Below are positions 4 to 24,869 of a stretch of DNA of 64,000 nt, piece by piece (the stretch's first letter is position 1; every line of letters begins with the position of its first letter). The stretch is from Planctomycetaceae bacterium. GTDB lineage: Bacteria > Planctomycetota > Planctomycetia > Planctomycetales > Planctomycetaceae. The notes beneath the pieces were generated by a model that saw nothing but the letters and a program-made list of their open reading frames with translations, made no database searches and had not been told where the DNA came from. The stretch spans positions 62,001 to 126,000 of the forward strand of contig JAGQQG010000001.1 in the NCBI GenBank assembly GCA_020426325.1. The letters run 5' to 3'. The translations under genes were made by a program, and so were the position numbers.

Positions 4-2607
4 GTGACTCAAGTCAATGCTGAGTCCGAACAATGTCAATCGTCTTGTTTCGGCTTGCTCGATGTGTTCATCATCAATCGGCAGCACCTCCGATGGTTGG
101 CTTGTGCGTCGTTGTTGACCGGAGCGGTGATTCCACTGGTAAGTCGTCAGATATTGCAGTTCCTGCCCGGCAGCGGGTTTGAGTTCTATGCAATGTTTGG
201 CGGACTCGTTTGCGGAGCGGCTTGTGGTCTCGCTTGGTCAGAGAGGCTGCTTCGGAAGAAAGACCAGACTCTCAGTCACGACGCGATCCTGAGTGCTTCA
301 TTCATCGTGGCTGTGTGGCCGGCCATTCTGCTGACCCTCGAACCACTGTTGTTGCGTTGGAATTTGGCGCTCAATGCGAGTCTCGAAACAGTTCCACTGT
401 TGATGGCCGTACGCTGGTCGATGGTATGCCTGGCTCTCTTTCCGCTGGGAGTTGCAGTCGGGCGTCTCTGCTCGTGCCGGTTTCGGTCGAAGCAGGAGGC
501 TGAGATTGTTGTTCCAGTCGCAGTGATGCTTTGTGTCGCAGCTGGCATCGTACTGATGCGGTCGCTGTGGCCTTCGCTCGGTCTGACAATGCTCTTCACG
601 ACAGCCGCAGCCATCACGTTGACTGTGGTTCGGTTGTGGAAGATTGAGAAACTCGCCCTCAGGAGGATCGACTGGGTCAGAGGGGCGATTGCGGTCGCTC
701 TGATCGGGTTATTCCCTTTAACAATTCCCAGTCATCGTCCTGATCTGACAGCGAAGCTGCTGTTTTCGGGTCAGGCATTCGCTGCCCACAACTCAGGGAT
801 TCAAAATGAACTCCTGCCGCACATCGATGACAACCGCCTGCTCACTGTCCGTGATGGTCGCGATGCAGTCTGGACTGCCTGGAAGTATCGAGGTTCTCAG
901 ATTCATCTGCGTCGAGATGGGATTCCAGCCGGCATCGTGAGCACGAACACTCAGGCCTGCCCGCAGTTTCCGGGCGATGTGGTGACAGCCATCGCACCGC
1001 TCGTTGTCCATCCTCGACCGGATCGTGTCCTGGTTGTCGGTCTGGGAAGCACGGCTGCCGTATCGACCTGCCTGGCCTGTCCGGTACGACACGTCACCTG
1101 CATTGAGGGTGATCAGGACCTGATCCGTATCAGCGACGAGGTCATCACGCAGGCATCCGGCTTCGATCCGTTGAACGATGATCGACTCGAAGTCCACCAC
1201 ATTGACCCCACGCTGGCCCTGCTCTCCAAAGGGGAATCCTACGACGTGGTGATCGTGGAAGATGCTCATCCATCACTCATGAAATTGACTTCTCGATTTA
1301 CTCGGGAGTTTTACGAGAGTACGGCCCGGCATCTCAATCCGGGAGGCGTCGTCAGTCAGCGGTTGCAATACGCTGACTTCGGTAGGGAGCCGATAGAGAC
1401 GATTCTCGCGACACTGCGAAGCGTTTTCCCTCAGGTGGTCTGTCTGGAATCTGCCCCTGGGGAACTTGTGCTCCTCGCTTCCAATCAGAGTGAGACCCTG
1501 TTTGATGAATCGCTGTTCGAGAGATGCCAGGCCGATCACATTCGACGGCTGCTCGCCCAACAGGGATGGGACTGGTCAGTGCTGGTCAATCTGTCTGCAA
1601 TCAGTCCCGAGCAGATCACCAAGCTGGCCTCGGGAGATGTTGTGATCAACACCATCGGCAATGGTCGGTTCACTTATCGGTTGCCGCAGGAAGTCATGCG
1701 ATGGGGACCGAAATGGCGAGAGCTTGCCAATCTGTTTTCCGAACGAGGCAGCCGGATGCTGGCCTGGATCGGTGAGTCGGAGGAGATTCCCGAGATCGGC
1801 AAACGGTTGAAGGACATGTCCGAACAGCATCGGTTGATCGTTGAGTATCCCGACCGCTGGCATGCCTATCGTTCCACACTCAAGACTCGTTTACAGGAAC
1901 GACCACGTACGAAGATTATGCCCGTCAATCACGAACTCGAACGTGTCCTGCATCCGGAAGATCAGCGACGCAAGGAGTATCTCAAGGTCCTCGGCGAGGC
2001 CGCCACCAGTGACGCTCCCTCGACCGGGGAAGTCGAGAGACTCGCGGAGTTTGCAGAGCCTTACGATCCGCTCGTCAGTTACTTCCTGCACGAGGAAGCA
2101 GCCCGACTTTATGACCGTTCTGAGACACCTGACCGCACAGCTCAGCTGACACATCTTCTTTATTCCATTCACTACAGCCCGGGTGAAGACCGCTCGGTCC
2201 GTAATGTGGTCGCCGCTCTGCAACTGCTGCTCGATGAGCCGGATTTGATTGCGGATCCTCACCAGCGTTGGGATGAGATGAATTCACTACTCGATGTGCT
2301 TCGCCATCGTTCGTCCCTGCGTGTACAGACTGACAAAACCGCATCGTCGTTCGAGTTGGTCGATGCTGAGCAAAGCATTCAGACCGCGGAGCGGGCCATG
2401 GATGCGATGGATGTTCTCTCAGCCGAGGCTGGTGTCGCAGCGACTGACTGGGAACATCGAAAGACGGTTCTCGAACGGATGCTGGTTCGTCCCATGTGGA
2501 CGTATCACTCCCAGCAGGCGCAGCGACTCGCCACCATTGAAGCCCGATTGGATCAGACGGCTGAACAAGCAGCAGAGTCCGAAGCCGAATCGACAACAAC
2601 CCGCTGA
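4..2607 (+). CDS. Polytopic membrane protein with spermidine-synthase-like domain
   Basis: The N-terminal third (about residues 30-230) is a run of hydrophobic segments, probably six or seven membrane helices. It is followed by a Rossmann-like methyltransferase/aminopropyltransferase fold: glycine-rich VLVVGLGST near residue 342, then an acidic CIEGDQD strand and the YDVVIVEDAHP strand. This layout matches the fused membrane/SpeE-like proteins common in planctomycetes; the substrate is unknown and true spermidine synthesis is not implied. The C-terminal 300 residues are helical and I do not recognise them. The GTG at position 4 is the first possible start in view, but the reading frame is open to the window edge, so the gene may begin further upstream. 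Confidence 0.75.
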   Translation: MTQVNAESEQCQSSCFGLLDVFIINRQHLRWLACASLLTGAVIPLVSRQILQFLPGSGFEFYAMFGGLVCGAACGLAWSERLLRKKDQTLSHDAILSASFIVAVWPAILLTLEPLLLRWNLALNASLETVPLLMAVRWSMVCLALFPLGVAVGRLCSCRFRSKQEAEIVVPVAVMLCVAAGIVLMRSLWPSLGLTMLFTTAAAITLTVVRLWKIEKLALRRIDWVRGAIAVALIGLFPLTIPSHRPDLTAKLLFSGQAFAAHNSGIQNELLPHIDDNRLLTVRDGRDAVWTAWKYRGSQIHLRRDGIPAGIVSTNTQACPQFPGDVVTAIAPLVVHPRPDRVLVVGLGSTAAVSTCLACPVRHVTCIEGDQDLIRISDEVITQASGFDPLNDDRLEVHHIDPTLALLSKGESYDVVIVEDAHPSLMKLTSRFTREFYESTARHLNPGGVVSQRLQYADFGREPIETILATLRSVFPQVVCLESAPGELVLLASNQSETLFDESLFERCQADHIRRLLAQQGWDWSVLVNLSAISPEQITKLASGDVVINTIGNGRFTYRLPQEVMRWGPKWRELANLFSERGSRMLAWIGESEEIPEIGKRLKDMSEQHRLIVEYPDRWHAYRSTLKTRLQERPRTKIMPVNHELERVLHPEDQRRKEYLKVLGEAATSDAPSTGEVERLAEFAEPYDPLVSYFLHEEAARLYDRSETPDRTAQLTHLLYSIHYSPGEDRSVRNVVAALQLLLDEPDLIADPHQRWDEMNSLLDVLRHRSSLRVQTDKTASSFELVDAEQSIQTAERAMDAMDVLSAEAGVAATDWEHRKTVLERMLVRPMWTYHSQQAQRLATIEARLDQTAEQAAESEAESTTTR

Positions 2608-2661
2608 TCTCTCATTGAACTGACCTCTCAGAAGAAACTCGAATCTCCACCGGAGTGGACC

Positions 2662-3486
2662 ATGCGTACGATTGCTGTGATGAATCAAAAGGGAGGCGTT
2701 GGCAAGACCACGAGCAGCGTCAACATCGCGGCTGGTCTGGCACGACGCGGAAGGCGTGTCTTGTTGATCGATCTCGACCCGCAGGCCCATGCGTCGCTGC
2801 ATCTGGGCGTTGAAGAAGCGGGAAGCGCTGAGACGATCTATCAGGTGTTCGCGGGTGCCCGGAAGCTGAAAGACATCCGCCAACTCACGACGACAAACCT
2901 TTGGCTGGCCGCAGCCGACCTCGATCTGGCTGCCACCGAACTGGAGTTGGTCGATGCCCCGGGACGGGAGCATGTCCTCCGCAAAGCCATCGCAGTCCAA
3001 TGCGAGGAAGAGCCGTTTGATTACATCATCATGGACTGCCCCCCGTCGCTCGGAGTGCTGACGATCAACGCCCTGACAGCAGCGACAGAAGTGTTCATCC
3101 CCTTGCAGCCTCACTTTCTCGCCTTGCAGGGGCTCTCGAAACTGTTCTCGACGACGGCTCTCGTGCGTCGACGGCTCAATCGTGATCTGCGTGTTTCGGG
3201 TGTGTTGCTTTGTCTGTATGAGACAGGGACGCGTCTGGCAGCGGACGTCACCGATGACCTGCTGCACTTCCTCGAATCGAGCGATGAGGACGCGCCCTGG
3301 GCGGGCGCTCGTGTCTTCGAGAACCGCATTCGCCGCAACATCAAACTCGCAGAGGCGCCCAGCTTCGGGCAGTCGATCTTCGACTATGCTCCTGCATCCG
3401 CCGGAGCACACGATTATGGCATGCTGGTGGATGAGATTATTGCTGCCGAGAAGAAGGTCGAGATGCCGACGGCTGAAGCAGCCTAG
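2662..3486 (+). CDS. parA: ParA/Soj-family ATPase (orphan)
   Basis: A deviant Walker A motif KGGVGKTT lies at residues 10-17, a [12 protein letters not shown] block follows, and the Walker B-like [12 protein letters not shown] begins at residue 120. These place it in the ParA/Soj/MinD class of partition and positioning ATPases. Length (274 residues) is normal for chromosomal Soj. GGAG at 2652-2655 precedes the ATG by 6 nt. No parB lies beside it, so it is either an orphan positioning ATPase or its partner is elsewhere. It ends one base before the end of the convergent DUF58 gene, with no room for a terminator between them. Confidence 0.9.
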
Positions 3487-3487
3487 A

Positions 3488-4384
3488 TCAGAACCTCGCT
3501 TTGCGTTGTGAGAGGTATTCGACGAGCGCCTTGTCGAAGTGCATGCTCGTGTCCAGTTCGACGAAGTCCGCTCCGCACGCGCGGCACTCCTTGCGGAACG
3601 TACCCCGGAGTTCTTCGAGGGCTTCACGGTAATCGGCACGGATGCCGGCTGCATCGACGAGCATCGTTTCGTCCGACTCCGGGTCCTTGAGATCGCACAT
3701 TCCGTCGAAGGGGAAGTGCACCTCCGCTTCATCGAGGACATGGAACACGATGACGTCGTGTCCGCCAAATCGGAGCATACGGATCGCCTCGATCACCGGC
3801 CCGGCATCGGTCAGCAGGTCGCTGAACAACATCACCAGACTCTTGTGTTTGACCATGGAGGCGAAGCGTCGGAGATTGAGTGCAATCTCCGTCGGGCCGG
3901 TTGGCTGGGCTTTCGCCAGCAGGGCGAGGATGTTTGCAAGTTGTGAGCGTTTGCTCTTCGCCGGCAGCGACGCCCGGATCTTGTCGTCAAACGTGATCAG
4001 TCCGACCGGGTCCTGTTGATGCACCATCAGGTAAGCAAGTGCAGCTGCGAGACAGACGGAGTACTCGAACTTCGTCAGTTCCTGTCGATACGTGTACGCC
4101 ATGCTCTCCGAAAGGTCCATCAGCAGGTAGCCGGTGAGATTGGTCTCAGCCTGATACTTCTTGATGTAGTAGCGATCCGTCTTGGCGTAAACGAGCCAGT
4201 CAATGTCCTTCGGGTCGTCCCCCTGTGTGTAACGGCGATGCTCGGAGAACTCGACGCTGAATCCATGAAAGGGGGACGCATGCAACCCGCTCAGAAACCC
4301 TTCGACGATGAACCGCGCACGCAGATCCAGCCTTGCAACCGTGCGAATGACTTCGGGCTTGAGATAGGCTTCAGCGGCGGGCAT
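3488..4384 (-). CDS. DUF58 domain protein (vWA-like, MoxR partner)
   Basis: The DUF58 signature runs SEHRRYTQGDDPKDIDWLVY (about residues 47-66), followed by a vWA-like region with the MIDAS-type DLSESM motif. Such proteins are normally co-transcribed with MoxR AAA+ ATPases, and moxR lies directly upstream on the same strand here, 69 nt away. The family is thought to help MoxR-driven assembly of protein or metal-cofactor complexes; the client is unknown. The spacer to moxR is filled by 7-nt repeats that abut the ATG, and I see no Shine-Dalgarno sequence before the start. No downstream BatA/BatB-type genes follow. Confidence 0.88.
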   Translation of the reverse strand: MPAAEAYLKPEVIRTVARLDLRARFIVEGFLSGLHASPFHGFSVEFSEHRRYTQGDDPKDIDWLVYAKTDRYYIKKYQAETNLTGYLLMDLSESMAYTYRQELTKFEYSVCLAAALAYLMVHQQDPVGLITFDDKIRASLPAKSKRSQLANILALLAKAQPTGPTEIALNLRRFASMVKHKSLVMLFSDLLTDAGPVIEAIRMLRFGGHDVIVFHVLDEAEVHFPFDGMCDLKDPESDETMLVDAAGIRADYREALEELRGTFRKECRACGADFVELDTSMHFDKALVEYLSQRKARF

Positions 4385-4385
4385 G

Positions 4386-4448
4386 GTCAGTTGTCAGTTG
4401 TGAGTTGTCAGTGATGGCATGGCTGAAAACTGATGACTGAGAACGGAA
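4386..4448. repeat. 7-nt repeat, inverted pair with almost no cargo
   Basis: Read on the plus strand, units GTCAGTT, GTCAGTT, GTGAGTT, GTCAGTG run from 4386 to 4413. After 14 nt the reverse-complement type follows: AACTGAT, GACTGAG, AACGGAA (4428-4448). The two arms can pair as a hairpin. It fills nearly the whole space between the moxR stop (complement of 4454-4456) and the DUF58 start codon (complement of 4382-4384). Confidence 0.8.
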
Positions 4449-4453
4449 GTTTC

Positions 4454-5470
4454 CTATTCGTATTTCGGCACAGCTGGTTCGGGAATCTCATCCAACAGAC
4501 GGGTGATGATCGTGTCGCTGTCGTAACCTTCGGCCTGAGCCTGGAAGTTCGGGGAGATGCGGTGCCGGAGAACGGGGATGGCGACGCGGCGAATATCCTC
4601 CAAAGAGACAGCGGGGCGGCCGTCCATGGCAGCGATGGCGCGGGCTCCATAAATGAGGTACTGACCTGCACGAGGACCTGCACCCCAGTCGACCAGTTCG
4701 CGGATGAATTTCGGAGCTGAGCCGTCACTGGGCCGGGTCGCGCGGACAAGTCGGGCCACATAATTGATTGTCAACGGGGCGATCTCGATCATGTTGATCT
4801 GTCGTTGGAGGTACAGGATCGCTTTCGCCGAGAGCACCTTACGGACCTCGCCTCCCGCGTTGTTTGTCGTCGCTGTGAGAATCTCTTCCTCTTCTTCAAG
4901 ATTCGGGTAGTCGACTTTGATATTGAACATGAACCGGTCGAGCTGAGCTTCGGGAAGCGGGTAGGTTCCCTCCTGTTCGATCGGGTTCTGTGTGGCGATG
5001 ACGAAGAACGGATCCGGCAGGTCATAAGTCGTCTGTCCGACGGTGACTTCACGCTCCTGCATGGCCTGTAGAAGTGCTGCCTGTGTTTTCGGCGGGGTCC
5101 GGTTGATTTCGTCAGCCAGCAGAATGTTGGTGAAGACCGGTCCTTTGACGAACCGGAACTCGCGGCGTCCGGTATCAGTCTCCTCCAGCACATTGGTGCC
5201 GGTGATATCGGAAGGCATGAGGTCAGGTGTGAACTGGATACGCTGGAACTGCACGTCCAGAATCTTCGCAATGGTGCTGACGACGAGAGTTTTCGCCAGA
5301 CCTGGGACACCGACGAGTAGGCAGTGCCCGCCGGTGAAGATGGCTGAGAGAATCTGCTCGATCACCGCGTCCTGTCCCACGATGACGTTATGCAGTTCCT
5401 CCGTCATTAGTTCTCGATGCTTACGGAACTTATCGAGGAACTCATCAAAGTCGCGTTTTTCAGTGGCCAA
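4454..5470 (-). CDS. moxR: MoxR-family AAA+ ATPase
   Basis: Walker A is GVPGLAKT (about residues 54-61), Walker B is ILLADEINR, and the sensor-1 region reads ATQNPIEQEGTYPLPEAQLD, all diagnostic of MoxR (AAA_3) ATPases. The protein is 338 residues, normal length, with a C-terminal lid domain. It probably acts as a chaperone ATPase together with the DUF58 protein encoded downstream. The gene is divergent from hppA, with about 290 nt between the two start codons. Confidence 0.93.
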   Translation of the reverse strand: MATEKRDFDEFLDKFRKHRELMTEELHNVIVGQDAVIEQILSAIFTGGHCLLVGVPGLAKTLVVSTIAKILDVQFQRIQFTPDLMPSDITGTNVLEETDTGRREFRFVKGPVFTNILLADEINRTPPKTQAALLQAMQEREVTVGQTTYDLPDPFFVIATQNPIEQEGTYPLPEAQLDRFMFNIKVDYPNLEEEEEILTATTNNAGGEVRKVLSAKAILYLQRQINMIEIAPLTINYVARLVRATRPSDGSAPKFIRELVDWGAGPRAGQYLIYGARAIAAMDGRPAVSLEDIRRVAIPVLRHRISPNFQAQAEGYDSDTIITRLLDEIPEPAVPKYE

Positions 5471-5635
5471 GATGCTAGTTCTCCAGAATGTTGTCGCTCA
5501 TACGGGCTGGGGATGCCGCAGAGTGGGATGTCAGTGTAAGGCAATCGAAAATGTGACGCTATGACCGCGAGTCGGGCTGAATCAACCTGGGTCTGTTCTT
5601 CGTACGATCATCGGGGCAGTCAGTGCTGGCGCTCG

Positions 5636-5665
5636 TTGACAACAAAAACGACCCCCCATTACACT
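5636..5665 (+). promoter_or_regulatory. Candidate sigma-70-type promoter for hppA
   Basis: A perfect TTGACA at 5636-5641 is followed after 18 nt by TACACT (four of six matches to TATAAT) at 5660-5665. Transcription would start near 5672, downstream of the earliest in-frame start of the hppA reading frame and upstream of 5764, which supports the later translation start. Confidence 0.5.
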
Positions 5666-5763
5666 CCCCCGCAAAGGTCTCCTTCATTACCACAGACGTC
5701 GTTAACGCTTATGTCGACGACATGCGACGTTTACCAACCCTCATGGCGGAGCAAACCCCTCGG

Positions 5764-8367
5764 ATGATCATGTTCAGCCGCAGCCTCAACTCCTGCTCGA
5801 AGCTCGGGCAACGTTTCCTCGCAATCCTGTTTGTCACTTTGATGTCCGCCCCGGTGTTGGCCCAGGATGAGGCCACTCACGAGGCCGCGACCGCATCAGG
5901 CGGAGGAGTGTCCGTCCTGATCGGCTGGCTGGTTGCATTGGCAGGCTCGATCACTGCACTCATCTTTGCATTCCGGTTCTATGGCTGGATGAAGGCACAG
6001 GACGAAGGTGACGCGAGGATGGTCGAGATTGCAGGCCATGTTCGCGCCGGTGCGAACGCCTACCTGTGGCGCCAGTATCGGGTCGTGCTATTGTTCTTCA
6101 TTGTGACTTCGCTGCTGTTGACGATCGTCGCGTTTGGATTTGGTGCTCAATCAAAGCTCGTTCCGTTTGCGTTTTTAACTGGTGGTTTCTTCTCTGCTCT
6201 CGCCGGTTGGTTCGGCATGAAGACCGCCACGTGGGCCAGTTCACGGACAGCACAGGCTTGCAAGCAGTCCCTTAATGCAGGGCTTCAGGTCGCGTTTCGT
6301 AGCGGTGCAGTCATGGGGCTGACAGTGGTCGGCCTTGGTCTGCTGGACATCTGCCTGTGGTTTGCAGCTCTCTATTGGTTCGCTCCGATGTTCGGGAGTA
6401 GCTATAGCCTGGAAGAGATCACCGTCACCATGCTTTGCTTCGGGATGGGAGCGAGCAGCCAGGCATTGTTCGCACGCGTTGGTGGTGGCATCTTCACGAA
6501 GGCTGCGGACGTGGGAGCTGACCTCGTCGGCAAGGTTGAAGCCGGTATCCCTGAAGACGATCCCCGCAACCCGGCGACGATCGCTGACAACGTGGGAGAC
6601 AACGTGGGTGATGTCGCAGGCATGGGGGCCGACCTCTACGAGTCCTACTGCGGTTCGATTCTGGCAAGTGCAGCTCTAGGTGTGGCTGCCTATACCGGCC
6701 ACTTGCAGATGCAGTTGATGATGCTCCTGCTGCCGATGGTGCTTGCAGGCCTCGGTATCGGTTTGTCGATCATGGGGATGTATCTGGTCCGTACGGAAGA
6801 GGGGGCCAGTCAAAAGAATCTGCTGGAAGCCCTTGGTCGCGGAATTAACGGCAGCAGCATCGGTGTTGGCGTCGTGGCGTTTCTGCTGGTCACATTGATG
6901 CTCGTCCTGCCTTCGCAGGGGATGAGTGATCTGAACGACACCGGCTTACGGCAGGGTTGGGACCTCCTTGGAGTGTTTGCAGCGATCGTCACTGGACTTG
7001 TGGCCGGGTGGTTGATCGGCTGGTGGACCGAGTATTCAACCAGTGACGTCTACGCCCCAACGAAACGAATTGCAGACCAGGCCGCCACGGGACCAGCGAC
7101 GGTCATTATCGCAGGTGTGGCAGAGGGTTTTTACAGCGTCTGGGTTCCGATTGTTGTGATTGGTTTCGCGATTATCATCGCCTTTGGTGCATGTACAGGT
7201 TTTAACTTTGCCGATCCTCAATTGTTTGCGATGGGGCTTTATGGCGTGGCGATTGCTGCTGTCGGCATGTTGAGTACGCTCGGCATCACGCTCGCAACGG
7301 ACGCCTATGGTCCGATCGCTGACAACGCGGGCGGCAATGCTGAGATGTGTCACCTCGACCCGCAGGTGCGAGAGCGAACCGATGCACTCGACAGCCTGGG
7401 GAACACGACTGCTGCGACCGGCAAAGGCTTTGCGATTGGATCGGCGGCTCTCACCGCATTGGCCCTGTTGGCCGCATACGTCGAAGAAGTCCGCGTCGGC
7501 TTTGAACGGTGGGCGGACCGCACCGAAGTTGTTGCCTCCGAGAGTCTGTCGAATGCAACCGTTGTCATTATTCGTCCCGGAGTCGTTGCCTATCGCGGTC
7601 CCGAGGATTCCCATAATCGCGCCTATCTGGTGTTCGAACCTCTGAACCAGTTTCAGCGAGACGTGATGGGTGATGCGGCTCCGGGTGCTCGCGAGGTTGG
7701 TGAACAGGTGACCGTGGACATGGCGAATCTGGAAGAGCGAGGAATGGCCGTCAATGCCCACTACGCCACCATGCCCGATTTCGTTCGGTTCTACGACGTC
7801 TCAATCATGAATCCAAAGGTGCTTGTCGGAATGTTTATGGGTGTGATGCTGGCGTTCGTCTTCTGTGCGATGACCATGAAGGCTGTCGGTCGGGCAGCCG
7901 GTTCAATGGTCGAGGAAGTGCGCCGCCAATTTCGTGAGATCAAAGGGATCATGGAGGAAGAGGCCGAACCCGATTATGCAGCGTGTGTCGATATCAGCAC
8001 GGCTGCTGCTCAGCGTGAGATGGTCGTCCCGGCCTGTCTGGGACTGCTCGTGCCGATTCTTGTCGGACTTCTGCTCGGTGTCGGCGGGGTGATGGGGATG
8101 CTGGCTGGCGGACTCACCAGCGGCTTTGCAGTTGCCATCATGATGGCCAATGCAGGCGGTGCGTGGGACAATGCCAAGAAGTACATCGAAACCGGTGCTC
8201 ACGGAGGCAAGGGCACTCCCGCTCACAAGGCGGCTGTCGTCGGTGACACCGTTGGCGATCCCTTCAAGGATACTTCCGGTCCGAGCTTGAACATCCTCAT
8301 CAAACTGATGAGTATGGTCAGTGTGGTCTTCGCCGGCCTCATCGTGCAATACGCACTCAATTTTTAG
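5764..8367 (+). CDS. hppA: Membrane-bound, ion-pumping pyrophosphatase, K+-dependent type
   Basis: This is a polytopic pump that couples PPi hydrolysis to H+ or Na+ export. The active-site block [11 protein letters not shown] with [10 protein letters not shown] (about residues 249-285) and the C-terminal [14 protein letters not shown] (about 826-840) are intact. The determinant [10 protein letters not shown] (near residue 545) has Ala and Gly where K+-independent enzymes have Lys and Thr, so K+ dependence is expected; the pumped ion cannot be told. The frame is open from 5623, but I choose ATG 5764 because it gives a signal-like start ([20 protein letters not shown], ending near ALAQ-type cleavage) and follows the promoter at 5636-5665; ATG 5743 or 5770 are alternatives. 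At 867 residues it is longer than usual: roughly 100 extra residues follow the GNTT block (about residues 572-680). Confidence 0.93.
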
Positions 8368-8368
8368 G

Positions 8369-8857
8369 GTCGGTCGTCAGTTGTCCGTGGTCCGTTGTGG
8401 TTGGCACATGAGGGATCGGAAGAATGGCGCGACCGCAATTTGAAAACCTCCAAGTATATCAATTGTCGGAGGAGATCGCGGATCTGATCTGGGACATCGT
8501 CGCAAGTTGGGAGCATTTTGCACGGAACACTGTCGGTAGTCAACTCGTCAGGGCTGCTGACAGTATTGGAGCAAACATCTCTGAAGGAGCTGGTAGGGGT
8601 TCGTTCCAGGATAATAAGCGGTTTGTCAAAATCGCTCGTGGATCGCTGAATGAAACACAACACTGGTTGCGACGTGCTTATCGACGCAACTTGTTGAGCG
8701 ACGAACAAACCAGTACTCTTAAACCTCTCATCGATGAATTAGGGCCAAAGCTCAACGCCTATCTGAACTCTATCGGACGCGGACATTGATCAGTCAGATC
8801 AGTGCAACACAGCACATGACAACTTCAGCAACGGACCACGGACAACTGACCACGGAC
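8369..8857 (+). mobile_element. Putative cassette A: 7-nt inverted repeats around an S23 gene
   Basis: The left arm (8369-8403) begins one base after the hppA stop codon and consists of 7-nt units GTCGGTC, GTCAGTT, GTCCGTG, GTCCGTT. The right arm (8830-8857) carries AACGGAC, CACGGAC, AACTGAC, CACGGAC. Positions 8376-8396 are the exact reverse complement of 8830-8850 (21 of 21), and the next unit matches 5 of 7. The enclosed DNA is one four-helix bundle gene. The right arm lies inside the first codons of rsfS. That this is a mobile cassette is inference; no transposase is present. Confidence 0.55.
8424..8789 (+). CDS. Four-helix bundle protein (S23/Avd-like)
   Basis: The motifs FENLQVYQLSEEIADLIW, QLVRAADSIGANISEGAGRG and FVKIARGSLNETQHWL are the signature of the four-helix bundle family first seen in 23S rRNA intervening sequences; it is related to Avd proteins of diversity-generating retroelements. 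Length of 121 residues is typical. Members bind nucleic acid where tested, but the role of chromosomal copies outside rRNA is not established. No reverse transcriptase or rRNA is nearby. The gene is the only content of an inverted 7-nt repeat pair inserted between hppA and rsfS. Confidence 0.9.
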   Translation: MARPQFENLQVYQLSEEIADLIWDIVASWEHFARNTVGSQLVRAADSIGANISEGAGRGSFQDNKRFVKIARGSLNETQHWLRRAYRRNLLSDEQTSTLKPLIDELGPKLNAYLNSIGRGH

Positions 8858-9223
8858 CAACACCAACGTAGTCTCGAGAATGCGGTCGAAGTCGCGCGAA
8901 TCTGTGATGCTTACCGGGGGCGCGATACGCTCGTGCTCGATCTCACCGGCATTACGCCCATTTGCGATTACTTCGTGATCACGACCGGCACCAACCGCCG
9001 GCAGATTCACGCCATCGCGGACGAGGTGAATCGTGTCCTGAAACAAAGCGGCACGAGACGCAGGGGACGTGAGGGTTACGACGAGAGCAGCTGGGTCGTC
9101 CAGGACTACGGTGACGTTGTTTTGCACGTGTTCACCCCCGAGACCCGCACCCTGTACGACCTCGAAAACCTCTGGGGCGACGCCCCGCATGTCGCGTGGG
9201 ATGACTCTGCTGAAAGCGAGTAG
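8816..9223 (+). CDS. rsfS: Ribosomal silencing factor RsfS
   Basis: RsfS binds uL14 on the 50S subunit and blocks subunit joining in starved cells. The core is complete: DTLVLDLTGITPICDYFVI, TGTNRRQIHAIADEV, VVQDYGDVVLHVF and the ending LYDLENLWGDA. The start is ATG 8816 (a TTG at 8786 is also in frame). With either start, the first 15 or so residues (MTTSATDHGQLTTDQHQ) are encoded by the right arm of the 7-nt repeat rather than by conserved rsfS sequence; conserved sequence begins at SLENAVEVAR. No good Shine-Dalgarno sequence is visible before 8816. Confidence 0.92.
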   Translation: MTTSATDHGQLTTDQHQRSLENAVEVARICDAYRGRDTLVLDLTGITPICDYFVITTGTNRRQIHAIADEVNRVLKQSGTRRRGREGYDESSWVVQDYGDVVLHVFTPETRTLYDLENLWGDAPHVAWDDSAESE

Positions 9224-9225
9224 GG

Positions 9226-9886
9226 ATCACTACGGAGGTCGCAGAACTATGACGCGACGGCGTGATAAAACACAAATGGCTGCTGACGTCTCAATTGCGC
9301 TGTCATCAAAACTCAGCGACACCGCTAAGTTCATTGTCATGAAGAATGTCATTTGGGAGTGGAGCCTCAACGATCGGAAGAAGCCTGATTGCCAAATCGT
9401 TTCTGCCGGAGTGGATAAGTTGGCTCAGGGATTCGACTTGAAGGATGTCAGGGGCGGATGGACCTTTGAGCATATCGTTCCGATCTGCGTGATTCAGAAT
9501 TTGCTTGCTAAGACAGCAGATGTATCCAAACAGAGAGGAATTCTCGAAAAGTACGCCATCGCGTGTCTAGTTACGAAGGACGAGGACGCATTGCTCCGTG
9601 AACATGGGCTAACGAATTCCATGCCGCGCACATGGAGGAATGGTGATGACGAATTCGCCCGGTACAGACAGGTCGGTATTGAATGGGTTAAAAGAGAGTA
9701 GGAAGTAGCCCGAGTTTGGAACGATTGAACAATACTGCGCAGCGACGCTCGTCGCTGGTTATCAACGGCATAAGCGTCCTGTGTGACTTAAGGATTGAAT
9801 CCCACGCAGTTCTCGGCGTTGCCTCACGGCTCACCAGACTACTAATCTCACACTCCGCGCACCTCCTCCGCGTCTCCGTGGTGAAC
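9226..9886 (+). mobile_element. Possible cassette B: degenerate 9-nt inverted repeats around an unknown gene
   Basis: Just after the rsfS stop, 9226-9247 contains TCACTACGGAGGTCGCAGAA. At 9854-9886, directly before the argS ATG, the reverse complement reads TTCACCACGGAGACGCGGAG. The shared core TCACYACGGAG in inverted orientation, with similar 9-nt texture, suggests a decayed pair of the same type as the one at 13446-13941. Agreement is much weaker than for the other two cassettes. Confidence 0.3.
9249..9701 (+). CDS. Unknown 150-residue protein with HIVP motif
   Basis: I do not recognise the family. The protein is basic at its N-terminus (MTRRRDKTQ), mostly helical by composition, and has a central WTFEHIVPICVIQNLL segment that resembles the first strand of some HNH-type nucleases. 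However, no following Asn/His pair or zinc-binding cysteines can be seen, so nuclease function is not supported. The start is ATG 9249; the preceding cggagg (9233-9238) may act as ribosome binding site although it lies about 10 nt away. It stands alone between rsfS and argS and seems an insertion between housekeeping genes. Confidence 0.6.
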   Translation: MTRRRDKTQMAADVSIALSSKLSDTAKFIVMKNVIWEWSLNDRKKPDCQIVSAGVDKLAQGFDLKDVRGGWTFEHIVPICVIQNLLAKTADVSKQRGILEKYAIACLVTKDEDALLREHGLTNSMPRTWRNGDDEFARYRQVGIEWVKRE

Positions 9887-9893
9887 AACACCC

Positions 9894-12494: not shown

Positions 12495-13448
12495 ATGTCC
12501 ATGATTTCGCCACGCGTACTGATTCTGTTATTGCTGACCGTTTTTGGTCGGCTGTCATTCGCTGCAGAAGCAAATGATCTCGAGTTCCGCGATGGGGACC
12601 GCGTGGTCCTGCTGGGGGGGACGATCATCGAACGTGAGCAACAGTTCGGACACTGGGAGACCCTCCTGACGATTGCCCACGCGGACAAGCACATCACGTT
12701 TCGCAATCTGGGGTGGAGCGGAGATACCGTGTGGGGCGAGTCGCGAGGGATGTTTGAACCGCACCTCGGATATCAGCGACTCATCGAGGAGGTGACAGCA
12801 GCGAATCCGACAGTCGTGCTTGTTGATTATGGGAGTAACGAGGCTTTCGCCGGTGAAGAGCGGTTGGTCGAATTCGTCGCTCAGTACGTCAAATTGCTCG
12901 ATGACCTGGCCGCCGACGGGCGTCGTTTCATTCTGTTGAGTCCGATGCATCTGGAGCCGATTCGCGTGCCTTACGATCCAGATGCTGCCGCTGACTTTGT
13001 TGAGCGGACAAACGCAAACATCGCATTGTACTCAAAGGCCATCGAAACGTTGGCCCTCGATGGCGGTCATGGATTCGTCGATCTGCTTTCGCTGCAATCC
13101 GACTGGGAGCAGCCGCAGAGGAAGTTTGATCTCACATTCAACGGCCTCACGCTGACTGACCAGGGTTACTTGCTGACCGGTCGCTGGCTCGCTTCGTTTT
13201 TTTCTCCGGCAATCAACTTCGACGAGCTTGACGTTGACTCACCCTCCATCACTCAGTTGCGAGAGGCGATCGTCGCCAAGAATGAGTTGTTCTTTCATCG
13301 CTGGCGACCCCAGAACTTCACCTACCTCTACAGCTTCCGCAAGCACGAACAAGGCAACAACGCGGTCGAGATCCCCCAGTTCGACCCCCTCGTTGAACAG
13401 AAAGAACGGGAGATTCATAAGCTCGCCCGTGCGGCTTCGGAGAATTGA
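12495..13448 (+). CDS. Secreted SGNH-hydrolase-like protein lacking the usual GDS serine
   Basis: A signal peptide (ILLLLTVFGRLSFAAEA) is followed by an SGNH-type fold: block I as VVLLGGTII, block II NLGWSGDTV, block III LVDYGSNEAF. In active SGNH enzymes block I is GDS; here it reads GGT, so the nucleophile serine is missing (Thr in its place). From memory this variant is common in planctomycete members found next to PVC-type haem proteins, as here, and may be non-catalytic or use another residue. Its TGA stop codon at 13446 coincides with the outer end of the inverted repeat that begins the next cassette. Confidence 0.8.
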   Translation: MSMISPRVLILLLLTVFGRLSFAAEANDLEFRDGDRVVLLGGTIIEREQQFGHWETLLTIAHADKHITFRNLGWSGDTVWGESRGMFEPHLGYQRLIEEVTAANPTVVLVDYGSNEAFAGEERLVEFVAQYVKLLDDLAADGRRFILLSPMHLEPIRVPYDPDAAADFVERTNANIALYSKAIETLALDGGHGFVDLLSLQSDWEQPQRKFDLTFNGLTLTDQGYLLTGRWLASFFSPAINFDELDVDSPSITQLREAIVAKNELFFHRWRPQNFTYLYSFRKHEQGNNAVEIPQFDPLVEQKEREIHKLARAASEN

Positions 13449-13941
13449 ACCGCAGAGGTCGCGGAGGACGCAGAGGGTTGTGGGATGAACATGAATAGCG
13501 TGAACGACGTCACCGGACAGATTGTCGACGCAGCGATGAAGGTCCATACTGTCCTCGGTCCCGGTCTCCTGGAGTCTGCCTACGAGGCCTGTCTGCTCTT
13601 CGAGTTGCATCGACGTGGGCTCGAAGCAAGATCGCAAGTGGCACTGCCAATCCAATACGAATCAGTCAAACTCGATGTCGGCTACCGACTCGACCTGCTC
13701 GTCGAAGATTTGGTGGTCGTTGAGATCAAAGCGGTCAATGATCTCACTCCTTTGTTTGAAGCCCAACTCCTTTCATACCTCAGACTCAGCGGCAACCAAG
13801 TCGGCCTCCTGATCAACTTTCATTCAGTGCGACTCAAAGACGGAATCAAACGTCTGGTCAATAACTACTCAGAATAACATCCCGAATTCCAATCGATGTC
13901 CATAATTGTTCCTCGGCGTTCTCCGCGACCTCTGCGGTTCA
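13446..13941 (+). mobile_element. Putative cassette C: 31-bp inverted repeats around a GxxExxY gene
   Basis: Positions 13446-13476 and the reverse complement of 13911-13941 agree in 29 of 31 bases. Each arm is built of 9-nt units of the type CCGCAGAGG, TCGCGGAGG, ACGCAGAGG. The left arm begins with the TGA stop of the SGNH gene; the right arm lies within codons 6-15 of the PVC haem gene. The only cargo is the GxxExxY gene. The repeats are read directly; the idea of a transposable or homing cassette is inference. Confidence 0.6.
13485..13877 (+). CDS. GxxExxY protein (PD-(D/E)XK_3 family)
   Basis: The family hallmark GLLESAY (GxxExxY) lies at residues 28-34 in the context VHTVLGPGLLESAYEACL. 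Downstream, GYRLDLLVED and VVVEIKAV give the D...E-x-K arrangement of the PD-(D/E)XK nuclease superfamily (Pfam PDDEXK_3). Length of 130 residues is typical. The biological role is not known; catalytic activity is inferred from fold only. It occurs alone between inverted 9-nt repeats, and its start ATG 13485 follows the left arm by 8 nt. Confidence 0.9.
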   Translation: MNMNSVNDVTGQIVDAAMKVHTVLGPGLLESAYEACLLFELHRRGLEARSQVALPIQYESVKLDVGYRLDLLVEDLVVVEIKAVNDLTPLFEAQLLSYLRLSGNQVGLLINFHSVRLKDGIKRLVNNYSE

Positions 13942-16900
13942 TCCTTCCCATGATCCTGTTCTGCAGTTCGGCCAACGCACAACGGGATCTCAAGGACATT
14001 CCGCCGCCGGACCCGGAACTGGAACGCGAGACGTTCGTGCTTCCGGAGGGGTTTGAGGTCAACCTGTTTGCCGCTGATCCTCAGATTGCGAAGCCCATTC
14101 AGATGAACTTTGATCCGCAAGGGCGGTTGTGGGTCGTCAGCAGTCACACCTATCCGCAGATTCTCCCGGGCGACGAGGCGAATGATCGTGTCCTCATTCT
14201 CGAAGACACGGACGGCGATGGAGTCAGCGACGGCACGACCGTGTTTGCGGACGGCCTGCTGATCCCGACCGGGATCGAACTTGGCGATGGTGGTGCGTAT
14301 GTTGCAGCGAGCACCGAGATGCTGCATCTCAAGGACACCAACGGCGACGGCAGGGCCGACACACGCAGGATCGTGCTCAGCGGCTTCGGTACCGAGGATA
14401 CTCATCACATCCTGCATACGTTTCGCTGGGGGCCGGAACAGCTGCTGTACATGAAGCAGTCGATCTACATCCACTCGCATGTTGAGACGCCGTGGGGAGT
14501 TGAACGGCTGAACGCGGGGGGGACGTGGCGATTCCGGCCTGAGAACTGGAAGCTGAGCGTGTTTGATCGCGGTCTCGTCAATTCCTGGGGACTCGACTTC
14601 GACGACTATGGCACCACTTTCGCCACCGATGGAGCTGGAGGCGAAGGGATCAATTACATCGTGCCCGGTGCTTCCTATCTGACAGCTTACGGTGCCCCGC
14701 GCATCCTGCATGGGCTCAATCCCGGTTCACCCAAGCACTGTGGACTGGAGATCGTTGATGGACGGCACCTGCCTGACGACTGGCAGGGGAGCATGCTCAC
14801 CAATGACTTTCGCGGACATCGTGTCTGCCGGTTCGTGGTGACAGAGGATGGTTCAGGGTATTACTCACAGGAGCAACAGGAGGTCATCAAGTCGGATCAC
14901 GTCGCCTTTCGTCCGATCGACATCAAGATGGGACCCGACGGAGCCATCTACATTGCGGACTGGTACAACCCCATCATTCAGCACGGCGAAGTGGATTTTC
15001 GTGATCCGCGACGTGATCACACGCACGGCCGCATCTGGCGGGTGACGTACAAATGGAATCCCCTCGTCGAGCGTCCGCAACTGGTGGACATGTCGAACGA
15101 CGAACTCGTCGCACAACTGGCCGCACCGGAACGCTGGACCCGGCGACAGGCCAAGCGTCTGCTCAAAGAGCGGGGCACAGATGTGTTGCCTGCAGTCAAG
15201 AGGTGGGCTCGCAACCTCGACAACTCAGCTCCCGGCTATCATCAACGGCGACTGGAGGCACTGTGGGTGTATCAGTCACTGGATGTCGTCGAGCCGGAAC
15301 TGTTGGAATCCCTGCTGACGTGTGTCGATCACAACGCCCGGGCTGCGGCCAGTCGTGTGGTTGGCGACTGGCACAAGCGTCTGGATGCGCCACTCGACCT
15401 GCTGGCGCCACGTGCAACTGATGAGCATCCGCGGGTCCGGCTCGAAGCGGTGCGTGCTTTGGCGACGATTCCGGACCCACACGCGATCGAGATTGCCATG
15501 ACGGCCCTTGACCCGGACGTGCCGCCTCTGTCAGCCTTCATGACGGCCGAGGAGCGTCAGCTCAACAAGCCGGGCGAGCTGCCTGTCCAAGTCGATCAGT
15601 GGCTCGACTATGCCCTGTGGTTGACCTGCCGCGACCTCGAACCGGTCTGGGAACCGGCTCTCCTGGCGGGTGAGATCGACTTTGGCAGCAACGTGCGACA
15701 TCTCACTTACGTGTTGAAGTCCGCAGGGTCTGCCAAGACGGTGCCTGTGCTGACCCGACTGCTCAGCGAAGGTCGCGTGCCTGACGATCAGCGTCAGGAT
15801 GTCCTCGACGTCGTGACCGAGTACGGCGGACCGCAAGAGTTCCGGGAGTTGTTGGAGCTGACCTCGTCAGCAGATTCTGTTGAGGTGACGGCCAGCATCC
15901 TGGAGAGTCTGCTGCGAGCCCATCGTCGACGAAAGGTTGTGCCCGAGGGAGATCACCAGTCGCTGGATCGGCTTCTGACGACAGAGAATGCACGCCTGCG
16001 GAGTTTGGCCATGCAATGCGTGGGGGCCTGGCATGTCGAGCGTCTCTGGCCGCAAGTGAAAGGGGTCGCTGAACAAGTAGACTCAACGCCTCAAGAACGT
16101 AACGGGGCATTGCAGGGTGCTGCCTCGTACGGTGGTGAAGAGGCAATCAATCTGCTGCGAAGTCTGGCAAAACAGGACGATGAATCAGCTCTGCAACTGC
16201 AGGCGATTCGTTTGCTCCTGCCGATTGATGTGACGACGGCCGCTCAACAGACGGTTACTGTCATGCAGCAGGCGAAGGATGCGGAGCGGTTGGTTTCGCT
16301 GATTGAGGATGTGTTGAGGCAGAAGCCGGCCATCGAGCAGTTGACTGGAGTTTTGAACGGACAAACGATTCCGGCGGATGTTGCAGTCGTTGCCCTGCGG
16401 GCCTTGCGTTCGTCCGGTCAGCAGTTGCCCGAGTTCTCAGCCGCGCTTCAGCAGGCGGGAGGAGTTACCACCGGCCCGAAGCAGCTCTCGCCCGAAGAGA
16501 TGGAAGCGATGATTGATGACGTGCTTTCTCACGGAGACCCCGCTGCCGGAGAACACGTGTTTCGGCGGCAAGATCTGAACTGCATCAAGTGTCACGCCAT
16601 CGGCGGAGCAGGGGGCAAGGTTGGTCCGGATCTTGTCAGCCTGGGGGCGACAGCACAACTCGATTACCTGATCAACGCCCTCCTGGACCCCAACAAGCAG
16701 ATCAAAGAAAACTATCACACGCAGGTCATCGTCACGAACGATGGTCAGACCTACTCAGGCATCCTTGTCCGTGAATCGGATCGCGACGTGCTCTTACGGG
16801 ATGCGGAAGGGCGAGAGATCAGCGTCCCCCTCGATTCGATTGATGAACGGGTTCAGGGAGTATCGCTCATGCCTGCCGGGCTGACGGACAAGCTCACAAG

Positions 16901-17402
16901 ATCTGAACTGGTTGACATGGTGGCATTCCTGAAAGCCTTGGGGCGGCTACCGGAGTACACGGTGAATCAGACCCCCATCGTCCGGCAGTGGGAGATGCTC
17001 CAACCCACCGAGGAGGCGGCATTTCGTCTGCGTCGTGTGGGAGACCATCTGGCAGCTGAAGGGGATCCGGCCTTCCAGTGGTCACCAGACTACGGACGAG
17101 TGGACGGTACGTTGCCGCTCGATCAGTTGCCGGTGATGAATGTGGGGGGCCGCCAGATGAGCTTTGTCCGGTTCCGTGTGACGGTCGATCAGCCACAGTT
17201 GGCGACAACACTGTCCTTCAATCAAACCCGTGGCCTGACGGGTTGGTTGAACGGCAAGCCGGTCGCATTGGCCGAGGTGGTTCCTGTTGAGCTGGAATCG
17301 GGGGAGAACTGGTTGACGCTGGCCGTCTCAGCAGTTGCCCGCGCAAACGACCTGAAGATCACGCTCGACACGACCACTCCAGAGGTTCGTCTGGCTCCGT
17401 GA
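13896..17402 (+). CDS. PVC-type haem-binding dehydrogenase with HEAT repeats and c-type cytochrome centre
   Basis: The domain order is: signal peptide; N-terminal membrane-bound-dehydrogenase (beta-propeller) domain beginning at LPEGFEVNLFAADPQIAKP; helical HEAT-like region (about residues 400-850); cytochrome c centre CIKCH near residue 895 followed by GGKVGPDLVSLG; and a C-terminal beta domain. This architecture is abundant in planctomycetes and is thought to act in periplasmic or cell-surface sugar oxidation; the substrate is unknown. It pairs with the upstream SGNH-like gene. With start ATG 13896 the positively charged part of the signal peptide (IVPRRSPRPLR) is encoded by the repeat arm of cassette C; starting instead at ATG 13950 would leave the signal peptide too short. 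Confidence 0.9.
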   Translation: MSIIVPRRSPRPLRFILPMILFCSSANAQRDLKDIPPPDPELERETFVLPEGFEVNLFAADPQIAKPIQMNFDPQGRLWVVSSHTYPQILPGDEANDRVLILEDTDGDGVSDGTTVFADGLLIPTGIELGDGGAYVAASTEMLHLKDTNGDGRADTRRIVLSGFGTEDTHHILHTFRWGPEQLLYMKQSIYIHSHVETPWGVERLNAGGTWRFRPENWKLSVFDRGLVNSWGLDFDDYGTTFATDGAGGEGINYIVPGASYLTAYGAPRILHGLNPGSPKHCGLEIVDGRHLPDDWQGSMLTNDFRGHRVCRFVVTEDGSGYYSQEQQEVIKSDHVAFRPIDIKMGPDGAIYIADWYNPIIQHGEVDFRDPRRDHTHGRIWRVTYKWNPLVERPQLVDMSNDELVAQLAAPERWTRRQAKRLLKERGTDVLPAVKRWARNLDNSAPGYHQRRLEALWVYQSLDVVEPELLESLLTCVDHNARAAASRVVGDWHKRLDAPLDLLAPRATDEHPRVRLEAVRALATIPDPHAIEIAMTALDPDVPPLSAFMTAEERQLNKPGELPVQVDQWLDYALWLTCRDLEPVWEPALLAGEIDFGSNVRHLTYVLKSAGSAKTVPVLTRLLSEGRVPDDQRQDVLDVVTEYGGPQEFRELLELTSSADSVEVTASILESLLRAHRRRKVVPEGDHQSLDRLLTTENARLRSLAMQCVGAWHVERLWPQVKGVAEQVDSTPQERNGALQGAASYGGEEAINLLRSLAKQDDESALQLQAIRLLLPIDVTTAAQQTVTVMQQAKDAERLVSLIEDVLRQKPAIEQLTGVLNGQTIPADVAVVALRALRSSGQQLPEFSAALQQAGGVTTGPKQLSPEEMEAMIDDVLSHGDPAAGEHVFRRQDLNCIKCHAIGGAGGKVGPDLVSLGATAQLDYLINALLDPNKQIKENYHTQVIVTNDGQTYSGILVRESDRDVLLRDAEGREISVPLDSIDERVQGVSLMPAGLTDKLTRSELVDMVAFLKALGRLPEYTVNQTPIVRQWEMLQPTEEAAFRLRRVGDHLAAEGDPAFQWSPDYGRVDGTLPLDQLPVMNVGGRQMSFVRFRVTVDQPQLATTLSFNQTRGLTGWLNGKPVALAEVVPVELESGENWLTLAVSAVARANDLKITLDTTTPEVRLAP

Positions 17403-23957: not shown

Positions 23958-24869
23958 GTGGCTTGGATATCGATCGCACTGTTGATCAGTATGAATACGG
24001 CACTCTCCGAACCGGGCGATCATTACCGAACGCTGCAAGTTGATGAACGGGATCGGGATTATTTGCTGCATATTCCCGAATCGTACGACCCAATGAGTCC
24101 CACACCAGTTGTTCTCATCCTGCATGGTGCAGGAACGGACGCTGACATCACTGTGAAGTTCACCGGCATGACGGCGAAGTCGGAAGAAGTGGGATTCATC
24201 GCGGTCTATCCGAACGGGACCGGCAGGAAGCCGCTCTACCACTGGAATGCGGGAGGAGAATCGACTCCGTTTCGGGCCAACGACGCGGATGATGTGAAGT
24301 ACATCTCTTGTGTGCTCGATGACGTGGAAAGCATCGTCAACGTTGACCGGCAACGGGTCTTTGCGACGGGCATGTCCAACGGTGGCATGATGTGCTATCG
24401 GCTGGCTGACGAAATGTCGGACCGTATCGCTGCGATTGCTCCGGTGGCCGGGACCATGATCATTGAAGAGGCTGATCCGCCGCGGCCTGTCCCAGTGCTT
24501 CACTTTCAGGGGATGGACGACCGTCTGGTCCCGCCGGATGGTCCCGGCAAGTGGACCCCCAAGTTCCTGTCGTTCAAGTCGCTGGACGAAACGGTTTCCA
24601 TCTGGTGCCGAGTCAACGGGTGTCCCGACTCTCCGGAGGTCTTCAAGCTTCCGAAGCTCAAGAAGGACGGCACGTCTGTGACGAGGAAAACGTATGGGCC
24701 GGGGCTCGCTGATTCGGAAGTGATCGTCTATGAGATCGCAGGGGGTGGACATACTTGGCCAGGGGAGGTGTCGCCGTTCAAGCTGCTGGGCAGATCGACC
24801 TTCGATATCAAGGCCAATGATCTGATCTGGGAGTTCTTCCAGCGGCATCCCATGCCTGCGACCCCGTGA
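23958..24869 (+). CDS. LpqC/PHB-depolymerase-family secreted esterase
   Basis: An alpha/beta hydrolase with YLLHIPESYDP, VVLILHGAGTDAD (oxyanion region), nucleophile elbow GMSNGGM, acid-containing HFQGMDDRLVPPDG and catalytic-His motif GGGHTWPGE. This is the pattern of the LpqC family of polyester or feruloyl esterases. The frame is open from 23913, but GTG 23958 is preferred: GGAGG at 23946-23950 precedes it by 7 nt, and it gives a clean signal peptide (MAWISIALLISMNTALSE). The gene overlaps the following hpnE start by one base or a few bases, suggesting one transcript. Confidence 0.85.
   Translation: MAWISIALLISMNTALSEPGDHYRTLQVDERDRDYLLHIPESYDPMSPTPVVLILHGAGTDADITVKFTGMTAKSEEVGFIAVYPNGTGRKPLYHWNAGGESTPFRANDADDVKYISCVLDDVESIVNVDRQRVFATGMSNGGMMCYRLADEMSDRIAAIAPVAGTMIIEEADPPRPVPVLHFQGMDDRLVPPDGPGKWTPKFLSFKSLDETVSIWCRVNGCPDSPEVFKLPKLKKDGTSVTRKTYGPGLADSEVIVYEIAGGGHTWPGEVSPFKLLGRSTFDIKANDLIWEFFQRHPMPATP

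Follow-up and report, generated by a model that had tools for sequence, protein, structure and literature searches.

The GxxExxY genes of the Planctomycetaceae bacterium studied here and most of those of its relatives lie between inverted arms built from short tandem units, and arms and protein form one unit. We consider it probable, at roughly 0.6, that this unit is a selfish cassette of one gene and that its PD-(D/E)XK enzyme recognises the arms around it. The window, the whole stretch of 64,000 nucleotides that was analysed (G000:C111:62001-126000, from a source assembly of 6.85 Mb), holds one such cassette, with the following features:

13446..13476, plus strand: left arm, with TGAAC at its outer end and then three heptamer cores
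13451-13457 (CGCAGAG), 13460-13466 (CGCGGAG) and 13469-13475 (CGCAGAG), plus strand: cores of the left arm
13485..13877, plus strand: GxxExxY gene, 130 aa, predicted PD-(D/E)XK nuclease fold
13911..13941, minus strand: right arm, inverted, with three cores and GGTTCA at its outer end
13912-13918 (CTCGGCG), 13921-13927 (CTCCGCG) and 13930-13936 (CTCTGCG), minus strand: cores of the right arm

A sequence-only reading had proposed 31-bp inverted repeats with 29 of 31 bases in agreement, and an inverted-repeat search of the window reproduced them as two 31-nt arms, 94% complementary (29/31) and 434 nt apart. Terminal inverted repeats, as used to recognise IS elements and MITEs, are thus present in this cassette (29/31). 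The "9-nt unit" of the same reading is correct as a period, which is 9 here; the true structure is a 7-nt core with a 2-nt spacer. A 26-nt pattern of the array, allowed at most three mismatches, matches only the two arms within the window and none of 100 shuffles. The first three bases of the left arm are the TGA stop codon of the upstream GDSL-lipase ORF (12495-13448), as had been seen from the letters, and on the downstream side, the ORF called for a PVC heme gene (13896-17402) shares its first codons with the right arm. Between the arms, the GxxExxY gene at 13485-13877 is the single ORF and is intact. An Rfam search of positions 13000-14400 gave no match.

The encoded protein matches PF13366 with 137 bits (cut-off 22) and TIGR04256 with 141.6 bits (cut-off 35), which upholds the earlier assignment of the cargo to the PD-(D/E)XK_3 family. 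It displays the PD-(D/E)XK catalytic pattern as E30, D70, E80-x-K82 and Q94; a diverse alignment (window numbering) shows no variation at D70, K82 and E30 and almost none at E80 and Q94, and all five are invariant in the close alignment set. The AlphaFold2 model is confident (pLDDT 95) and has a PD-(D/E)XK fold. Its nearest solved folds are REase-like nucleases, namely SSO0001/Cas4 (4ic1, Z 9.8) and 3ijm (Z 8.3), followed by CinB (Z 8.0) and the archaeal Holliday-junction resolvase Hjc (1gef, Z 7.2), where values under about 8 prove little beyond the fold. A PDB sequence search with the family profile retrieved no solved relative. By motif and model, the window protein belongs to the PD-(D/E)XK nuclease superfamily. 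The GxxExxY gene is under purifying selection: dN/dS is about 0.06 for the window gene against its ortholog in G163, and ranges from 0.06 to 0.25 over eight GxxExxY pairs.

The sequence-only reading stood to fall if arms were absent around other GxxExxY genes; they flank all four such genes of the source genome, with a different unit each time (CGCAGAG, CACGGAG, CGCGAAT and AACGAAG). In the class as a whole, the family is found in 65 of 118 genomes, and flanking inverted arms, called at a score of at least 14, are present at 75 of the 91 loci examined. A multi-phylum set (Acidobacteriota, Planctomycetota, Bacteroidota, Verrucomicrobiota, Chloroflexota and others) gave 60 of 80 loci; this set was gathered with the window protein as query and is therefore limited to its own clade. 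When the identical test was applied to all ORFs of the same loci, it was passed by 71% of the 51 GxxExxY ORFs but by 2.3% of the 265 remaining ones, and several of the few passing controls lie next to an element and have its arms or hairpins in common with it. The expectations that arms would surround these genes more often than background genes, and that a general class of one-gene elements with short-tandem-repeat ends exists, both agree with these counts. Arms and GxxExxY gene almost certainly constitute a real, family-wide element. Both possible layouts occur, the gene inside one hairpin and the gene between two. The second is seen in genus g3 (L103, L045, L091, L098), where the gene lies between two complete hairpins in the order + - gene + -. 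We also noted, at 2134-3865 of L073, a 576-aa ORF of unknown kind inside an AACGAAG-type hairpin that adjoins a GxxExxY cassette; it is possibly a third cargo.

Within the class, GxxExxY arms usually consist of three cores that follow the pattern C(A/G)C-N-(A/G)A-(G/T/A), i.e. CRCNRA(G/T/A), separated by spacers of 1-3 nt that result in a period of 8-10, and the two arms of an element mostly agree in their spacings. Units of the AACGAAG type replace these cores in one protein clade. A second cassette of the window, with a different cargo, offers a parallel:

8368..8397, plus strand: left arm of the S23 cassette, 7-nt units, GTCCGTG-like
8442..8756, plus strand: S23 / 23S_rRNA_IVP gene (G000:C111:70442-70756), four-helix bundle, PF05635 match
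8829..8858, minus strand: right arm of the S23 cassette, inverted partner of 8368..8397

The S23 (PF05635) genes, five in the source genome and most of those in the class, lie between inverted arms of 7-nt units, so that the S23 cassette does share the logic of the GxxExxY cassette with another unit and another cargo, as had been supposed. Autocorrelation gave 7 as the best period for 36 of 41 S23 arms, versus 8, 9 or 10 for 112 of 125 GxxExxY arms and 7 for none of the 125; the cargo family therefore predicts the unit length. Heptamer arrays are found at two other places in the window. The ORF at 24866-26464, which is oxidoreductase-like, contains arrays (GAGAGTT..., ACCACTC..., period 7/14) in frame at 25880-26041; it looks as though a repeat of the S23 type had been inserted with the coding sequence left unbroken. 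At 4386-4412, four copies of the S23-type unit GTCAGTT form an array that has no inverted partner of at least 18 nt, and no S23 gene of the genome is adjacent to it.

The core sequence follows the protein clade. For 85 GxxExxY proteins we built a tree, which is based on 131 columns and has many weak forks, and labelled it with the last core base as G, T, A or the AACGAAG class; nine loci were labelled by eye. This base changes 9 times on the tree versus 35.8 times in shuffled data (sd 1.9, minimum 30 in 300 shuffles), a contrast that orthologous loci inflate. When labels were shuffled only within host genus, 24.8 changes were obtained (minimum 19), against the observed 9. The first core bases also cluster on the tree (12 changes versus 23.3 shuffled), as does core spacing (14 versus 30.7). 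AACGAAG-type arms are restricted to one clade (L004, L073, L108, L109, L111), and its five sites are without flank homology to one another. In several phyla, loci whose proteins are 50-70% identical to the window protein have a CRCNGAG-type core wherever the array is readable. Arms that are recognisable over such divergence should therefore be under constraint, and the simplest cause would be recognition by the enclosed protein. We regard such recognition of the arms by the encoded GxxExxY protein, although putative, as likely.

Replication slippage together with palindrome correction could alone have generated the arms, and the cargo would then play no part in recognising them. Correction of quasi-palindromes is an established process, and left and right arms do change together: the orthologous gene-less hairpin of G034 and G062 (L361/L367) carries matching substitutions in both arms, which indicates that the arms evolve in concert. 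Nevertheless, slippage of this kind is disfavoured and seems to us very unlikely, as the CRCNRA core is kept across phyla and across protein divergence, depends on the cargo clade, and is accompanied by neighbouring ORFs that have no arms.

Hairpins without a gene are abundant. The source genome has 23 CGCAGAG-type arrays, against 0 for the reversed-pattern control; most are inverted pairs 40-46 nt apart that form hairpins of about 90 bp, and about 10 dispersed gene-less hairpins with unrelated loops are found in this genome. Triple arrays of CACGAAA, of which a single genome has up to 44, reach high numbers only in g3 and g59, two genera with GxxExxY genes that match these arrays. More generally, a GxxExxY gene is present in 18 of the 21 genomes with at least three CGCAGAG arrays versus 46 of 96 others (p = 0.0015); G091 was left out of this comparison because its reversed-pattern control is equally high. 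Arrays occur also in G050 (20) and G109 (8), where no GxxExxY gene was detected. The free spacer bases are nearly fixed in each genome (AA in 18 of 20 for G050, GG in 15 of 17 for G062) and differ among genomes (AA in G050, GG in G062, AC in G109), a sign that arrays are copied inside each genome. By eye, no target-site duplication was apparent at about eight gene-less hairpins, and a 400-kb alignment of the g3 genomes G049 and G088 (~95% identical) contained no clean presence/absence hairpin.

It is conceivable that another host enzyme, for example a REP-associated Y1 transposase, mobilises these hairpins, and that the GxxExxY and S23 genes are passengers in their loops. Gene-less hairpins far outnumber gene-bearing ones and are present where no GxxExxY gene was detected, as this explanation would have it, and the GxxExxY nuclease has no known transposase activity. 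A passenger, however, would fix neither the arm period by cargo family (7 versus 8-10 nt) nor the core base by protein clade, and the latter association holds within host genus as well. Moreover, a Pfam search of the cassette identified PF13366 only, with no other domain and no known transposase family, and no Y1 domain was found when the cassette and its two neighbour genes were searched against Pfam. We therefore judge the action of another enzyme to be unlikely.

Comparative data lend support to the idea that the cassette may move. At one junction in g3, the element is present in G013, G033, G049, G088 and G104; the site is empty in G008 and G108 and occupied by a gene-less hairpin in G069, and in G045 an element lies beside the homologous upstream flank. 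The GDSL-PVC junction of the window contains the orthologous element in G163. In G182, G057 and G170 it is occupied by hairpins that lack a gene and belong to other classes, and several further relatives have no repeat there. A hotspot test of this junction counted the hairpins of G182, G057 and G170 and a remnant array in G128 over 18 junctions, against a background of 5 per 261 gaps, a result that is only suggestive because the detector missed one class. Between two genes that we take, from the flanking sequence, to be gltB and gltD, GxxExxY elements with different arms are found in five genera. Algoriphagus aquaeductus has a tandem hairpin-gene-hairpin-gene-hairpin at a locus for which strain AK58, with an identity of about 92%, shows nothing but a hairpin belonging to a different class. 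With the flanking genes unchanged, one Algoriphagus genome out of three and two Acidobacteriota genomes out of six have the cassette in reverse orientation; inversion between inverted repeats can also be obtained by ordinary homologous recombination. The tree of the window's clade has 21 phylum changes (minimum 8, shuffled 39), which implies repeated inter-phylum transfer, with the caution that binned genomes call for. Full gene copies number 1-9 per genome and, except for one tandem pair, are not near-identical, which speaks against a recent burst of the gene. Relatives with an empty site either differ too much in sequence or have a hairpin of another class in its place, and no base-exact empty site was found; a plasmid collection yielded seven distant GxxExxY matches, too few for empty sites.

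Orthologous elements nonetheless persist at one locus across a genus under purifying selection, which could reflect a host function. The arms might then be operators or RNA hairpins of a fixed host or addiction module, acting in autoregulation, transcript processing or protection, and the nuclease would not mobilise anything. Autoregulation would likewise produce covariation of protein and arms, elements do lie between co-directional genes such as gltB/gltD, and orthologs persist at the low dN/dS values given above (0.06-0.25). However, dispersed gene-less hairpins that are homogenised in each genome are not expected of a fixed module; nor are presence/absence at orthologous sites and inversion of the cassette, nor repeated transfer between phyla at the level observed (21 changes, minimum 8). 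A fixed regulatory module is, in our opinion, improbable.

For the selfish cassette that we favour, the following sequence of events can be envisaged. The nuclease would bind the three heptamers in each of the two arms, which may be extruded into a cruciform, and would cut at the arms; repair or recombination would then copy, invert, swap or insert the cassette. Gene-less hairpins would correspond to gene-less copies or to empty target sites served in trans. The route may be transposition proper or a homing-like conversion of existing hairpins. That the GxxExxY protein itself drives the spread is a putative role to which we give slightly better than even odds. Whether PD-(D/E)XK and S23 cassettes together represent an unrecognised class of selfish DNA, each encoding a single small nucleic-acid protein that reads terminal inverted arrays of short units, its type setting the unit length and its clade the unit sequence, is for us an evenly balanced proposition.

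Several known systems resemble these elements in part. In REP/RAYT systems, an enzyme gene is flanked by palindromic repeats and many gene-less palindromes are dispersed in the genome. The GxxExxY gene in its palindromic arms, together with the dispersed hairpins, has the same organisation; unlike RAYT, which is an HUH/Y1 enzyme, the GxxExxY enzyme is of the PD-(D/E)XK type, its arms are three tandem heptamers, and the class of the arms varies together with the gene across genomes and phyla. As in IS elements and MITEs, an enzyme gene lies between terminal inverted repeats and gene-less derivatives are more numerous, but the cassette has no DDE, HUH, serine or tyrosine enzyme, no target-site duplication was seen, and there is no burst of identical copies. 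PD-(D/E)XK homing endonucleases are likewise small nuclease genes within a DNA site, here a candidate target of the enzyme itself; in contrast to them, no intron or intein is involved, and the candidate target is a triple-heptamer palindrome that is also empty at many places.

STRRs are short tandem heptamer repeats of cyanobacteria. TAACTGA heptamers form intergenic direct repeats in Cyanobacteria and Beggiatoaceae and are described as being of unknown function, in a paper that contains no occurrence of "S23" or "intervening sequence" (PMC4679880). The arms of S23 cassettes resemble both in being intergenic 7-nt tandem units, whereas GxxExxY arms differ from them with a period of 8-10. According to the available part of the source, the Coxiella-type 23S rRNA IVS consists of a small gene in a stem loop with terminal inverted repeats of about 28 bp, is regarded as selfish, and has an ORF proposed to serve mobility (PMC4990558). 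The window cassette is similar to the S23/IVP IVS in that one small gene lies in a stem of terminal repeats. It differs from the IVS, which sits in 23S rRNA and has an S23 ORF, in its location between the GDSL lipase and PVC heme-binding genes, in its nuclease cargo and in its tandem units, which that part of the source does not mention for the IVS stem (PMC4990558). In the open-access literature, which leaves subscription journals and preprints outside its scope, we found no paper linking GxxExxY to repeats and no match to a unit string; the one match for PF13366/TIGR04256 is, by its title and abstract, not about repeats.

These data suggest a function for GxxExxY/PF13366 and S23/PF05635, both of them orphan families of wide distribution, and tie both to short-unit repeats by one rule, in which the cargo family goes with unit length and the cargo clade with unit sequence. 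If correct, this would explain many intergenic hairpins and heptamer or nonamer repeats of Planctomycetota, Acidobacteriota, Bacteroidota and possibly Cyanobacteria, and abundant short-unit repeats that have been catalogued without explanation would gain one. Should the way in which the nuclease reads triple heptamers differ from clade to clade, the family would be a naturally diversified set of enzymes that recognise short DNA sites. What spreads the hairpins can also be addressed directly, given a single small protein in purified form and a synthetic arm of 31 bp.

Single arms were encountered as well. G049 (L210, about 1230-5990) and G088 (L230), although about 95% identical otherwise, have different gene cassettes in a region where single arms TTTCGTGTCTTTCGTGCCTTTCGTGGTAGTAAA, present as direct repeats, border these cassettes; the pattern is like that of an integron or a recombination hotspot. 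In the window, a lone minus-strand array (CACGGAGACGCGGAG...) at 9850-9890 is an arm without a partner and lies directly before the ATG at 9894.
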